A stretch of 52,601 nt of DNA from an uncultured Spirochaetaceae bacterium (lineage in GTDB: Bacteria; Spirochaetota; Spirochaetia; Sphaerochaetales; Sphaerochaetaceae), in assembly GCA_944389025.1 (NCBI GenBank), contig CALXKU010000018.1, forward strand, positions 1 through 52,601, in the 5' to 3' direction. This document shows, in pieces, positions 27,246 through 33,140 of this stretch (position 1 is its first letter; each line of letters starts with the position of its first letter). Under the pieces are notes generated by a model. That model saw only the letters and a program-made list of their open reading frames with translations. It made no database searches and had not been told where the DNA came from. The position numbers were made by a program, and so were the translations under genes.

Positions 27246-28875
27246 CTATCTTGCGGAGAATCCCGGTAAGAACCCCTGCCTGGTTCTTCCTACAGGTGCG
27301 GGGAAAAGCGTCTGCATCGCCGCGTTCATCGAGGCCGCGCTCGAATGGTGGCCGGGAATCAAGATAATGATTCTCACTCATCAGAAGGAACTCATAGAGC
27401 AGGATGCGAGGGCGTTGCACAGGATTGTTCCGGACCTCTCCATAGGGCTTTACTCATCATCACTCAGATGCAAGGACCTCTCACAGCCTGTGACCTTTGC
27501 ATCAATCCAATCGATCTACAAGATATCCGTGCCGGATGTCAGATTCATCCTGATAGACGAGGCGCATCTTATCAACAACGAGGACCAGGGGATGTATCGC
27601 CGGTTCCTGGAACATTCGAGGGCGCGCATCATCGGGCTCACAGCCACGCCGTACAGGATGGGGCAGGGATATCTTACAGATGGGGACGGCATATTCGATG
27701 AGCTCATCCAGCCGGTTTCCATTCTTGAGCTTCAGGGGCTCGGATATCTTGCGAAGCTCAGAAGCAAGGGGACTTTCACTAAACTAGATGTTTCCAACGT
27801 CCGTCTCAGGGGAGGGGAGTTCATAGACTCCGACCTTCAGAAGGAGCTGGACACGTTCACAACCAACGAGGCCGTGGCTGAGGAGATAATCAGGAGCGCC
27901 GCATACTACAAGAGGGCGCATATACTCGTATTCTGTTCGGGTGTGGAACACGCAAGACACATATCGGAGATACTTTCTGATAAAGGCATGAAGGCCTCAT
28001 ACATAGCTGGGAACATGGGCATGGAGGACAGGGAGGAAATCCTCTACTGCTTCACTCATGGCCATACCACAGCGCTCTGCAACGCTAATCTTCTCACGAC
28101 AGGCTTTGACTTCCCTGACATCGACATGATAGCCATGCTCAGGCCTACGATGTCACCAGGGCTATATCTTCAGATGGCTGGTAGGGGATTGAGACTCAAA
28201 TCAAATGGTGGGGACTGCCTTATCCTTGATTTCGCAGGCAATGTGCAGCGCCATGGTCCTGTGGCTTTCGTATCTCCACCTGCAAGAAAAGGGGAGGCGA
28301 GGCAGGGTGTCATGCCGTGCAAGGAATGCCCTCAGTGCCTTGAGATAGTTCCTCTGTCTCTTGGTGTCTGCCCTTCATGCGGATATGTGTTCCCGAAGAA
28401 CTCCCTTACATGGGTGCTCTATGACGGGGATGTCAACGGGGACGGATATGAGAAGCACTCCGTCTGGAAATGGTCATGGATGATTACTCAATCCAGGAAG
28501 AACAGCACCCCGATGATAGTCTGCGAGTTCCGTACAAACGGCAATGACAGGATAAGCAAGTACTTCCTCGTATGGCATGAGAAGATGAGGAGGAAGTCCG
28601 TAGTCGAACTCATCAAGGTGGCAAGAAGGGCTGGCGTGGATCTTGATGCGAGTTACTGCGATGAACTCAAGGAGGAAGATGACTGGTGGAATCTCATATC
28701 GGCCATAGAAGCTGGTGAGATGCCTCAGATGATCATAACAAAGAGGTCCGAACAGGACAGGAGATACAAGAACATAGCCTACATGCTCTGGAAATCCGAC
28801 ATCGAGGAGCTGAGGAATGAGGCTGAAAAGGAGAAGGAGGTGATAGAGGATGCAAGAAGAAAACTTCTCGGCTGA
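27199..28875 (+). CDS. SF2 DEAH-box helicase with zinc ribbon
   Basis: This 558-aa helicase has Walker A LPTGAGKSV (about 30-38), DEAH box LIDEAHLINN, motif III GLTATPYRMG, and motif VI MAGRGLRL. A four-cysteine zinc ribbon (CKECPQCLEI and CPSCGYVF) lies at about 375-400. It resembles phage helicases of the type III restriction subunit/RecQ-like class that open replication forks or recombination intermediates. GGGAGGGG precedes the start, and it overlaps the nuclease upstream and the primase downstream (26 bp). Confidence 0.88.
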   Translation: MELRTYQLKAIQSTFDYLAENPGKNPCLVLPTGAGKSVCIAAFIEAALEWWPGIKIMILTHQKELIEQDARALHRIVPDLSIGLYSSSLRCKDLSQPVTFASIQSIYKISVPDVRFILIDEAHLINNEDQGMYRRFLEHSRARIIGLTATPYRMGQGYLTDGDGIFDELIQPVSILELQGLGYLAKLRSKGTFTKLDVSNVRLRGGEFIDSDLQKELDTFTTNEAVAEEIIRSAAYYKRAHILVFCSGVEHARHISEILSDKGMKASYIAGNMGMEDREEILYCFTHGHTTALCNANLLTTGFDFPDIDMIAMLRPTMSPGLYLQMAGRGLRLKSNGGDCLILDFAGNVQRHGPVAFVSPPARKGEARQGVMPCKECPQCLEIVPLSLGVCPSCGYVFPKNSLTWVLYDGDVNGDGYEKHSVWKWSWMITQSRKNSTPMIVCEFRTNGNDRISKYFLVWHEKMRRKSVVELIKVARRAGVDLDASYCDELKEEDDWWNLISAIEAGEMPQMIITKRSEQDRRYKNIAYMLWKSDIEELRNEAEKEKEVIEDARRKLLG

Positions 28876-30844
28876 ATCGTTCCAATCCTTCACTCAGCGC
28901 ATCCTCGGTGTCGCCGTCAATCCAGTGATGGATGACAGGCTCCACAGGTTCGATGTGAAAAAGCGCGGAGACAAGGCAGGCTGGTACGTATACCACTACA
29001 ACGATGGAAACCTCCAGATAGCCATAGGTGGCTGCTGGCAGACCGGGACGGAATTCAGATGGTCGAGCAAGAATAAGTCCGATTACACATCAACCGACTG
29101 GGAAGCGATTAGGCGTGCTGATGCTGAAAGGAAGAGAATCCAGGAGGAGGAATGGAGGAAAGGAGCTGAAAAGGCTCAGGAGATCTATTTGAATTCACCC
29201 GTATGTCCGGATGACTTCAGCTATCTTGTGAGGAAGAATGTCAGGAACCATGGCGGTCTTCTCCACATCACCGAGACAGGGGACGCATGCATAATCCCCG
29301 TATACGGAGCTGATGGAGAGATCAGGTCCATTCAGAAGATCTTCGCTGATCCGAATAAGAGGAAATGGTTCATGCTTGGGTCCCGTAAGAAGGGCGGATT
29401 CTGTGTCATAGGCCAATTGGAGGATAAGGCCTACCTCTGTGAGGGCTATGCCACAGGAGCGTCAATCTACGAGGCAACGGGAAGGTCTGTCGTCGTGGCT
29501 TTCGATGGCAACAACATGAAGGATGTGGCTGATGAGCTGAAATCCAGAGTTGAACTCACCGTAATAGCAGACAACGACCAGAAGGAGGATGGAAGCAATC
29601 CGGGAAAGACATACGCAGAGAAAACCGGGCTTCCTTACATCCTCATCCCTGAGACGGGCAAGGATGCCAACGACTATGCTGCTGAGCATGGTCTTGAGGC
29701 TCTGAAGAACCTTCTTATGCCTCAGACATCCTCATGGATCGAGGATGGAGACGAGCTTCTGAAAACACCATCCCCTCTGCGCTGGCTGATTAAGGGATGG
29801 ATTCCCCGGGAAGGTCTTGCCATGGTCTTTGGCGCTTCGAACTCAGGAAAGACGTTCGTAGTCCTGGACATGCTGCTGAGCATGTCTACCGGCCGTGGAA
29901 GCTGGATGGGGATGAAAGCCAGGGATGCAAAATGCCTCTATCTATGCGGCGAAGGATTCGCAGGGCTGAGGGGAAGGGTTGCATTATGGGCACAGGAGCA
30001 CGGCCTCTCATCAATGGGTACGTTCAAGATCTCGAAAGGTCCTAAGAGACTCAACGAAGCCTCGGATCTGGCATTCGTCGCAGAGCAGATAGACCTTTCC
30101 GGTATGCAGCCGGACATAATCGCAATCGACACTCTCAACCGCTTCTTTTCCGGAGATGAGAACTCTGCTGAAGAGATCAGCGGTTTCCTCGAATCGCTCA
30201 TGGAACTCCAGAATAAGTACAAGTGCGCAATTCTGCTTATCCACCATACGGGAGTATCCAAGGAAGCCGACATGAGGGCAAGAGGTTCAAGTGCGCTCAA
30301 CGCCGCTGCGGATGTCGCTATCTGCGTGACCAACGAGAAGGGCTATCTCACCTTGACTCAGACAAAACAGAAGGATGCGGAGCTTCAGGAACCTGTTGAG
30401 GTCCACCTGAAGGGCGCAGTGATCAACGGCTGGCTTGATGAGGACGGTGAGGAGGTCAGATCCGCAATCATTGAGCCTGTGGGCGAGGAAGGCAAGCAGA
30501 TCGATGTCACGGAAGAGATGGTGATCATTTCCGATGCATGGCTGAGGAGCGAGCACAAGATGATGCTCGGATACCCCGCGCTCTCAAGCTCTGATCTGAG
30601 GGCCTACATGAGGGATGTCCTGGCATGGAGCCGCAACAAGATCAAGAAGGTTTTCGCCAACGACTACGGCTCAAGATTCCTCAGGAAGATGCTTTCCGCA
30701 GGTGTCATCCAGATGGTTGAAGAGCAGATTCTGATGGTTGACGAGGTCTCGGTTTCATGCTGTCTACTGACGCTTTCCGGCATGGAAAAACAGGGTGGTG
30801 CCAATGGTGCCAACGTGGTGCCAAAAACATTTTGGCACCAGTGA
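28850..30844 (+). CDS. Primase-helicase: Toprim plus RecA-like (RepA/AAA_25) ATPase
   Basis: This 664-aa protein combines a Toprim domain (glutamate in LCEGYATGAS near 197, acidic pair in VIADND near 238) with a RecA-fold ATPase (Walker A FGASNSGKTFV near 330, Walker B IIAIDTLNRFF near 422, LLIHHTGV after it). No N-terminal zinc-finger primase motif is obvious. The C-terminus is a helical/winged region. It is the likely replication initiator/helicase of the phage. Its last codons lie within the TGGTGCCAA repeat cluster and encode GGANGANVVPKTFWHQ, an odd tail dictated by the repeats. Confidence 0.85.
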   Translation: MQEENFSAESFQSFTQRILGVAVNPVMDDRLHRFDVKKRGDKAGWYVYHYNDGNLQIAIGGCWQTGTEFRWSSKNKSDYTSTDWEAIRRADAERKRIQEEEWRKGAEKAQEIYLNSPVCPDDFSYLVRKNVRNHGGLLHITETGDACIIPVYGADGEIRSIQKIFADPNKRKWFMLGSRKKGGFCVIGQLEDKAYLCEGYATGASIYEATGRSVVVAFDGNNMKDVADELKSRVELTVIADNDQKEDGSNPGKTYAEKTGLPYILIPETGKDANDYAAEHGLEALKNLLMPQTSSWIEDGDELLKTPSPLRWLIKGWIPREGLAMVFGASNSGKTFVVLDMLLSMSTGRGSWMGMKARDAKCLYLCGEGFAGLRGRVALWAQEHGLSSMGTFKISKGPKRLNEASDLAFVAEQIDLSGMQPDIIAIDTLNRFFSGDENSAEEISGFLESLMELQNKYKCAILLIHHTGVSKEADMRARGSSALNAAADVAICVTNEKGYLTLTQTKQKDAELQEPVEVHLKGAVINGWLDEDGEEVRSAIIEPVGEEGKQIDVTEEMVIISDAWLRSEHKMMLGYPALSSSDLRAYMRDVLAWSRNKIKKVFANDYGSRFLRKMLSAGVIQMVEEQILMVDEVSVSCCLLTLSGMEKQGGANGANVVPKTFWHQ

Positions 30845-30992
30845 TGCAATCTCCCCAAATGGTGCCAACAGATGTGCCACACACTCTATAGAGTGTGGCA
30901 CCATTGGCACCAGGGAGCATGGGGATGAGTTGGAACCGTATTAGGAGGGTTAATGGATAGGAAAAAGTACAGGGGTGCCAAGATGGTGCCAA
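30796..30992. repeat. Iteron-like TGGTGCCAA cluster, candidate phage replication origin
   Basis: Exact TGGTGCCAA copies lie at 30796, 30805, 30816, 30860 and 30984, with inverted copies at 30832-30840 and 30904-30912. One-mismatch copies lie near 30873, 30895 and 30973. Two copies form a perfect 11-bp hairpin (30816-30840, loop ACA). A long dyad centred on CTATAG (30878-30895, 18 bp perfect) lies between copies. The cluster spans the end of the primase-helicase gene, the 108-bp gap and the start of the VRR-NUC gene. Confidence 0.65.
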
Positions 30993-31321
30993 GACCTGCG
31001 GAGGCTGTGATACAGGCTGATGTTGTGCAACTTCTGCAGAAGAACGGGATATTCTGCCACAGCGTTCCAAACGAGGGCGCAGGTACGGATATGATACGCA
31101 CCACGCAGCTTATCGCGCTTGGCTTGAGAAAAGGCGTGGCCGACCTGGTTGTCTGGTGGCCGGATGGAATCGGATATCTCGAGATGAAGAAGCCGGGTGG
31201 GACGCAGTCCCCTGAGCAGAAGGTGTTCGAGATGAAATGCAGGGAATACGGAGTGGCTTATGATCTGGCTCATTCCGTGGAAGAGGTTGAATCACTTATA
31301 GAGTGGCATAGGAGGAAATGA
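30953..31321 (+). CDS. VRR-NUC domain nuclease
   Basis: This 122-aa protein matches the VRR-NUC fold, a stand-alone PD-(D/E)XK nuclease: GVADLVVWWPDGIGYLEMKK supplies the D and the E-x-K, and GGTQSPEQKVFEMKCREYG the following helix. Phage members act on branched DNA such as Holliday junctions. TAGGAGGG precedes the ATG. Its first codons contain two TGGTGCCAA-type repeats. Confidence 0.85.
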   Translation: MDRKKYRGAKMVPRPAEAVIQADVVQLLQKNGIFCHSVPNEGAGTDMIRTTQLIALGLRKGVADLVVWWPDGIGYLEMKKPGGTQSPEQKVFEMKCREYGVAYDLAHSVEEVESLIEWHRRK

Positions 31322-31479: not shown

Positions 31480-33140
31480 GGAGGTACGGACGAAATCTTG
31501 GACTTGAAATCTACAGGTAAGGAGATTGAGTCATGTATTCAGTTGAAGAGAGACAAAAGGCAGTTGACCTTTATCTTAAGTATGGAAGGAATGCAGCGCT
31601 AGCCATAAGGGAGTTGGGCTATCCAAAGCGCCATGCTCTGATGCAATGGGTCAGGGAATATGAAAAGACGGGCAAATTGCATGAGAAGACTGCTGGTCAT
31701 AGAGGGTACAGCGAAAAAGAAAAACGGACAGCTGTCGACTTCTACCTTGAACACGGCAAACAAATCAAATATACGCTGAAGACACTGGGCTATCCAGGAA
31801 GGACAACATTGAAGCTCTGGATAGATGAGCTGGCTCCAGGCAATCGCCGCGTATTCGAAGGCAACTCAACCCAGACCAGATATCCTGATGTGGACAAGGA
31901 GAAAGCTGTTGCCGCACTAATATCTAGGGAAGGTAGCGCAGCACAAGTCGCCAAGGAGTTCGATGTCAGACGCTCAGCCCTTTACAACTGGAAAAAGCAG
32001 CTTGCTAATGATATCACTGTCCCTGATATGGAAAAGAACCAGGACGGCGGAATCAAGGTAGCCGCCATTGAAGAGGCGCAGGAGATCATAAGGCAGTACG
32101 AGGAAAACATAGCTCGTCTCAAGGAAGAGAATGCCGCACTTGACCGCGAGCTGTATAGGAAGCGGATTGAGGTAGCTGTGCTTAAGAAGGCTGCAGAAGT
32201 AGTAAAAAAAGGAGAGGGCATCAGTCTGGAAAAGATGACAAACAAGGAGAAGACACTCGTGATTGATGCCCTACGCAAAGACTTTCCTCTTAAGGACCTT
32301 CTCCATGTAATGTGCATCTCGAAAAGCAGCTACTGCTACAGTCACAATGCACTGTCAAATGATAAGTACAGAGAGCTCAGGGTACAGATATGCCAGGTCT
32401 TCAATGAGAATGATGGCCGCTACGGTTCTCTGCGCATCTGGATGGCCCTCAAGCGCAATGATGTAGTCATTTCAGAGAAGGTTGTCAGACGGATCATGAA
32501 GGAAGAAAAGCTGCGTGTCAGATGCGTCAAGAGAAAGAAGTACAGCTCATACAAGGGTGAGATCTCGCCTGCTGTACCGAACCTCATCAATCGCGATTTC
32601 CATGCTGATAAACCCAACGAAAAGTGGCTTACCGACATCACTGAATTCAGCATACCCGCAGGTAGGGTCTATCTCTCCCCATTGGTCGACTGCTATGATG
32701 GTATGGTTGTATCCTGGACGATAGGGACGAGTCCCAATGCTGAGATGGCTAACAGAATGCTTTCTGCAGGCATAGCGGCTCTGCAAGAAGACGAGCACCC
32801 GATTGTGCACTCCGACAGAGGCTGCCATTACCAGTGGCCAGGCTGGATTGAGCTCATGGAAGAAGCCCAGCTAGTCAGGTCCATGTCCAAGAAAGGATGC
32901 TCTCCTGACAACAGCGCATGTGAGGGCTTCTTCGGAAGAATGAAGAACGAAATGTTCTACAAGAAGGACTGGAGAGGATGGACAATCAATCAATTCATCG
33001 AGGAAGTCGACACATACATTCATTGGTACAACGAAAAGAGGATCAAAATGTCTCTTGGGGGAATGAGCCCTCTTGAGTTCAGAAAAGAAACTTCCAATAA
33101 TTCAGAGGCAGTCTAAGTCCAAAAAAACGTCCGCATCCCC
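31480..33140 (+). mobile_element. IS3-family insertion sequence, 1661 bp
   Basis: Imperfect 26-bp terminal inverted repeats (31480-31505 and 33115-33140, 19 of 26 matching) share CGGACG and TTGGACTT blocks. The element is flanked by AAG direct repeats (31477-31479 and 33141-33143), a 3-bp target duplication typical of IS3 elements. It contains one transposase gene in the same direction as the prophage. Confidence 0.88.
31533..33116 (+). CDS. IS3-family transposase, OrfA and OrfB in one frame
   Basis: This 527-aa transposase holds three N-terminal helix-turn-helix units (about 5-50, 55-105 and 115-160), a leucine-zipper helix (about 175-225), then an HTH_21 segment and the rve catalytic core. 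The DDE residues are D368 (WLTDIT), D428 (HSDRG) and E464 (CEGFFGR), with exact DD(35)E spacing. Most IS3 elements need a -1 frameshift to join OrfA and OrfB; here the protein is a single frame. It has its own ribosome binding site (TAAGGAG). The stop overlaps the right inverted repeat. Confidence 0.93.
   Translation: MYSVEERQKAVDLYLKYGRNAALAIRELGYPKRHALMQWVREYEKTGKLHEKTAGHRGYSEKEKRTAVDFYLEHGKQIKYTLKTLGYPGRTTLKLWIDELAPGNRRVFEGNSTQTRYPDVDKEKAVAALISREGSAAQVAKEFDVRRSALYNWKKQLANDITVPDMEKNQDGGIKVAAIEEAQEIIRQYEENIARLKEENAALDRELYRKRIEVAVLKKAAEVVKKGEGISLEKMTNKEKTLVIDALRKDFPLKDLLHVMCISKSSYCYSHNALSNDKYRELRVQICQVFNENDGRYGSLRIWMALKRNDVVISEKVVRRIMKEEKLRVRCVKRKKYSSYKGEISPAVPNLINRDFHADKPNEKWLTDITEFSIPAGRVYLSPLVDCYDGMVVSWTIGTSPNAEMANRMLSAGIAALQEDEHPIVHSDRGCHYQWPGWIELMEEAQLVRSMSKKGCSPDNSACEGFFGRMKNEMFYKKDWRGWTINQFIEEVDTYIHWYNEKRIKMSLGGMSPLEFRKETSNNSEAV

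Follow-up and report, generated by a model that had tools for sequence, protein, structure and literature searches.

An iteron array at the 3′ end of a Toprim/RepA-like primase-helicase gene, a probable replication origin in a family of phages

A dense array of short repeats at the 3′ end of a primase-helicase gene is, we hold with good confidence, both the replication origin of a phage and the site at which that primase-helicase acts as its own initiator; origin activity and binding are inferred. The array was found in a contig of 52,601 nucleotides (CALXKU010000018.1), the whole of which is referred to here as the window. Judged by the SSB-like protein, Cas4-domain exonuclease, DEAD-type helicase, TerL and portal encoded around the array (Pfam, PHROGs), the window is a tailed-phage prophage contig of a Spirochaetaceae MAG. 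A 558-aa helicase is encoded by the gene ahead of the primase, and TerL lies about 4.7 kb from the array, beyond an IS element. An IS3-family transposase (phrog_157, rve/HTH) at 31533-33116, two genes past the array, separates the replication module from the terminase and is likely an insertion into the prophage. The array begins in the last codons of the primase-helicase gene and finishes in the first codons of a gene for a VRR-NUC nuclease:

28850-30844, plus strand: primase-helicase, 664 aa (Pfam Toprim_3 and AAA_25; PHROGs primase/helicase matches)
30796-30804, plus strand: iteron TGGTGCCAA, exact copy
30805-30813, plus strand: iteron TGGTGCCAA, exact copy
30816-30824, plus strand: iteron TGGTGCCAA, exact copy; left arm of hairpin 1
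30816-30840, no strand: hairpin 1, arms 30816-30826 and 30830-30840 (11 bp, 100%), 3-nt loop ACA
30832-30840, minus strand: iteron TGGTGCCAA, exact copy; right arm of hairpin 1
30860-30868, plus strand: iteron TGGTGCCAA, exact copy
30880-30897, no strand: hairpin 2, the perfect 18-bp palindrome CACACTCTATAGAGTGTG, between opposed iterons
30895-30903, minus strand: near iteron TGGTGCCAC, one mismatch
30904-30912, minus strand: iteron TGGTGCCAA, exact copy
30953-31321, plus strand: VRR-NUC nuclease, 122 aa (Pfam PF08774)
30973-30981, plus strand: near iteron GGGTGCCAA, one mismatch; inside the VRR-NUC start
30984-30992, plus strand: iteron TGGTGCCAA, exact copy; inside the VRR-NUC start

A preliminary description of this DNA had counted seven exact and three near copies of a 9-mer in about 200 bp. 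The seven exact copies of TGGTGCCAA stand, as do two near copies with one mismatch each, all within 197 bp (30796-30992); the third near copy, ATGTGCCAC at about 30872, requires two mismatches. The two repeat orientations, the 11-bp hairpin and the 18-bp palindrome in the middle, which it had also reported, were all located in the sequence. If lengthened to 12-nt arms (30874-30901, 92%), the palindrome CACACTCTATAGAGTGTG includes the ends of iterons, and hairpin 1 has a counterpart in relatives such as L007 and L009. Its claim that the repeats dictate the end of one protein and the start of the next was borne out: both the C-terminal tail of the primase, which reads ...GGANGANVVPKTFWHQ up to the stop, and the N-terminus of VRR-NUC, MDRKKYRGAKMVPR..., are written by the repeats. 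In relatives the primase tail varies with the iteron (GKQHEQH, GKHHEHHTGTI and QGANGAK, each followed by the stop).

Chance clustering of 9-mers was gauged from 30 third-order Markov simulations of the window, in which no 9-mer exceeded a maximum of 2-4 copies per 250 bp, compared with seven in the array, which is the densest short-repeat cluster of the whole window. The rest of the 2.31-Mb assembly contains no paired copies of TGGTGCCA. The array meets the criterion of an iteron-type origin, namely multiple short repeats clustered near the (proposed) initiator gene. GC skew shows no reversal at the array and follows gene strand. An Rfam search returned no family there, and a structural RNA or a TIGR array was rejected on the grounds that the short words are uniform, lie in both orientations and have no spacers between them.

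A search of genome contigs returned one primase relative at 94% identity, from a Spirochaetaceae bacterium, and primase relatives of 51-56% identity from the same bacterial genus or family have an array at the same place. When viral contigs were searched with the window's primase alone as query there were no matches, whereas an alignment-based query gave hundreds, the full set of matching contigs numbering more than 560; three alignment-based scans yielded about 230 viral loci. The position of the array is conserved among relatives whose primases are 33-55% identical. Among loci that extend far enough downstream, most have their densest short-repeat cluster 10-250 bp beyond the primase stop, and at 105 of 179 distinct loci the array window at the primase stop outscored each of that locus's control windows. 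The array is a real and general feature, and probably a replication origin, although origin activity remains an inference. The preliminary description had set the array between the primase-helicase and VRR-NUC. Adjacency to the primase-helicase is kept in relatives, but the VRR-NUC neighbour proved incidental, being found downstream at only 8 loci, against 137 loci whose sequence continues for at least 1 kb downstream. We therefore rejected VRR-NUC as an essential partner; in distant relatives the array, as far as sequence comparison can tell, goes with the Toprim/RepA-like primase-helicase and not with the VRR-NUC gene.

The usual layout comprises direct iterons, an inverted iteron that forms hairpin 1, further direct iterons, a perfect palindrome and opposed iterons. 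A palindrome whose arms reach 8 or more is present in 65 of 79 arrays, compared with 6 of 79 shuffles; the centre is often CTATAG, CTTTAG or CTTAAG, and the arms are often C/G-rich. The palindrome is conserved as a palindrome while its sequence changes, and in groups that share one iteron the stem pairs are of several complementary types, a count that is illustrative only because the stems were chosen for pairing. Many viral arrays (L034, L038, L112 and similar) share a GGCAAAGGCA-like word between the two iteron sets, with a GATGCGGG-like word right after the last iteron.

Arrays are also present in the cultured phages XX1924, PB15, CGphi29 and 1N2-2, whose annotated stretches contain no origin feature. 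In the cultured marine or hypersaline phages L287, L288, L289 and L291 a regulator precedes the primase; none is found there in the window's phage. Salicola phage CGphi29 (L289) has been reported to carry a TIGR-Tas locus, which is separate from the iteron array (PMC12045711). Manatee Spring phage ct76p945 has no clear array, and a sizeable minority of relatives lack a clear adjacent one; only one such exception was traced to an array elsewhere. In that clade, G149 (L068, L078 and others), no array stands behind the primase; in the full contig of L078 there is, about 8 kb from the primase, a displaced array (L297:13666-13868) that combines ten copies of GTGCAA with a CTTAAG-centred palindrome. 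This array directly precedes a gene that, by a guess from sequence, may encode a small terminase subunit or a regulator. The G149 distance implies that the array is an element separable from the end of the primase gene, which argues against a mere transcription terminator. A repeat cluster at L298:19110-19352 in a related phage contig was rejected as an origin; it is a Gly-rich coding repeat (GYG/GTG-type) that mimics a cluster.

The iteron words differ by lineage. We obtained about 50 consensus 7-mers with related G-rich/C cores, for example AGGGTCA, CGGTAAC, GGTACGG, AACGGAC, TGGACAA, GGGTACA and GTTGCGT. Close relatives of the window's phage use GGTGCCAA (L008, L009), GCACCAT (L007) and GCAACAT (L006), and more distant ones TCGGCA around a TATATA-rich palindrome (L011, L012) and GGTGCCA (L013). 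L006 and L007 align closely, and nearly all of their iterons differ by the same base at matching positions (GCAACA versus GCACCA), the pattern that a single binding protein imposing the word would produce. As a check of the origin reading, the preliminary description had proposed asking whether related phages keep the repeat while its flanks change. The outcome supports that reading more strongly than the check required: across 184 distinct relatives position and layout are widely kept, with the word itself switching in concert.

According to Pfam, the 664-aa protein contains Toprim_3 at residues 194-281 and an AAA_25/RepA-like helicase at residues 301-470. AlphaFold2 predicts a winged helix for its C-terminal domain (modelled from residue 540, pLDDT 82.5) and likewise for that of a viral relative (pLDDT 92.2):

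30509-30793, plus strand: C-terminal winged helix, proposed origin-binding domain, residues ~554-648 (AlphaFold2 prediction)
30626-30658, plus strand: residues 593-603, second helix of the helix-turn-helix and proposed recognition helix, with the highest per-column iteron association

In a fold search with the C-terminal domain the best neighbours were mostly winged-helix DNA binders, none of them significant (Z at most 7), and they named no specific origin-binding family; a profile comparison with solved structures found no relative. The origin-binding domains of P4 or SaPI were not among the sequence matches or the listed fold matches, an absence that, for the listed fold matches, does not exclude the P4 domain.

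To relate iteron word and protein, we compared 79 non-redundant phages (<90% identity). Iteron similarity follows the identity of the C-terminal domain after correction for the other domains (partial Mantel r 0.26, reached by 0 of 500 permutations), with values of about zero or slightly below for the Toprim and helicase domains. In a per-column test of 528 columns, the 14 columns best associated with the iteron all fall in residues 586-608, with a peak at 593-603. The z values average 6.9 over residues 591-603 (maximum 14), compared with at most 4.8 in the Toprim and helicase parts and a mean of 1.5 at residues 620-632; they come from permutations that ignore the tree, with the roughly 500 other columns as internal control. 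Since z falls towards the stop codon, the end that is closest to the array, the signal is not accounted for by simple linkage. Residues 593-603 remain the top region when the largest clade, that of AGGGTCA, is left out; the column signal is weak among the 22 sequences left at 75% non-redundancy, with 603, 593 and 600 still near the top. Pairs of helix and word include SAKQYIKPSV with GGTAACT, SAKVYIKPSA with GGGAAC-like words, TVRNMINPSY with AGGGTCA and TIENDLSAAY with AGGGGGC.

This co-variation of the word with one predicted DNA-reading helix supports binding of the iterons by the primase-helicase and suggests that the protein finds its own start site, in the absence of binding data. We lean, if only slightly, towards a recognition code in which a few helix positions (596, 597, 600, 601 and 603) set the origin word, and in which phages diverge into origin-specificity groups by changing the helix and all iterons together.

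Other functions of the array have to be weighed against this. It could be an operator rather than an origin, with the primase-helicase or some other phage protein acting on it to control downstream transcription; many repressors share the winged-helix fold, and in the window the VRR-NUC gene and the late region follow the array. We regard this as unlikely, since the genes downstream change from phage to phage and the array remains with the primase, the G149 array is some 8 kb away, the co-varying reader belongs to the helicase-primase polypeptide, and a paired palindrome-iteron layout with 7-13 sites would be unusual for an operator. It is quite unlikely, too, that the iterons are read by another protein, such as a small regulator upstream of the primase, and tracked by the primase C-terminal domain through linkage only. 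Association that peaks at 593-603 and drops toward the stop codon is not what linkage to an adjacent array predicts. A small annotated transcriptional regulator does directly precede the primase in XX1924, PB15, CGphi29 and 1N2-2, but in the window that place is taken by the 558-aa helicase and the array is present anyway.

We give hardly any credence to the repeats being a packaging (pac/cos) site or a recombination hot spot that lies by the primase through chance. Such sites are repeat-rich too, and the G149 array stands just before what may be, again by a guess, the small terminase subunit gene; yet TerL in the window is distant and behind the IS element, the position of the array follows the primase in most lineages, and a packaging site does not predict a word that co-varies with a primase helix, although no terminase was given the same test.

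As a proposed origin read by its own primase-helicase, the array resembles several known systems, each of which differs from it in some respect. What appears to set the window's family apart from SaPI/PICI, SCCmec Cch2, pRN1 and P4 is its helicase class, as assigned by Pfam, together with the joint presence of iterons and a conserved palindrome. The Rep protein of SaPI is an AAA+/SF3-like helicase, and the helicase of P4 belongs to SF3. In SaPI/PICI, an iteron origin lies directly 3′ of the initiator gene, and the C-terminal domain of the helicase recognises the iterons (PMC6092414, PMC7581432). The array is likewise directly downstream of the primase-helicase gene, with two iteron sets around a central region. 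That centre is AT-rich in SaPI/PICI, whereas the window's family has a perfect palindrome with a short CTATAG-like middle and does not meet the AT-rich criterion; moreover, those elements are satellites and the members of this family whole phages, and SaPI Rep has a separate or fused primase where the window's protein has AAA_25 and Toprim_3. P4 alpha unites a Toprim primase, a helicase and a C-terminal winged-helix origin-binding domain that reads repeats in one polypeptide (PMC4234260, citing Yeo 2002). The window's protein similarly has a Toprim primase, a helicase and a predicted C-terminal winged helix in one chain, but its helicase is RepA-like AAA_25, and no sequence match to the P4 domain was found.

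In ORF904 of pRN1 and in phage BIP-1, which have an archaeo-eukaryotic primase and an SF3 helicase, a C-terminal winged helix is combined with an origin directly downstream of the gene; a hairpin conserved in shape and not in sequence is required, and no origin iterons were found (PMC4234260). A stem-loop downstream of the replication gene is present and conserved in the window's family as well, from which no essentiality is inferred, but the window's protein has Toprim_3 and not the archaeo-eukaryotic primase domain. In SCCmec, the Cch2 helicase uses its C-terminal domain to bind short direct repeats that lie downstream of the gene encoding it (PMC7581432); this system differs in having only three 5-nt iterons, a separate polymerase-primase and a D5-type helicase. 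The RSF1010 origin, served by RepA, RepB′ and RepC, has iterons, primase-specific hairpins and a RepA-type hexameric helicase (PMC4234260). There the functions reside in three separate proteins, whereas in the window's family iteron binding (inferred), helicase and primase are apparently in one chain.

In the mechanism that we propose, the C-terminal winged helices of several subunits would bind the iterons via the helix at 595-602, and the bound subunits would bring together a helicase ring on each side of the palindrome. The DNA there would then open, with the palindrome and the hairpin folding out into single-stranded hairpins; the RepA-like helicase would load on the opened DNA, and the Toprim domain would prime, perhaps beside an exposed hairpin.

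We found no paper in the open-access literature that describes the array in these phages, and the origins of most uncultured phages are unknown. The rule that iterons around a palindrome mark the 3′ end of a Toprim/RepA-like primase-helicase gene predicts origins in many phage contigs of public viromes. With about 50 natural words and their matching helices, a joint change of initiator and origin specificity becomes directly testable.
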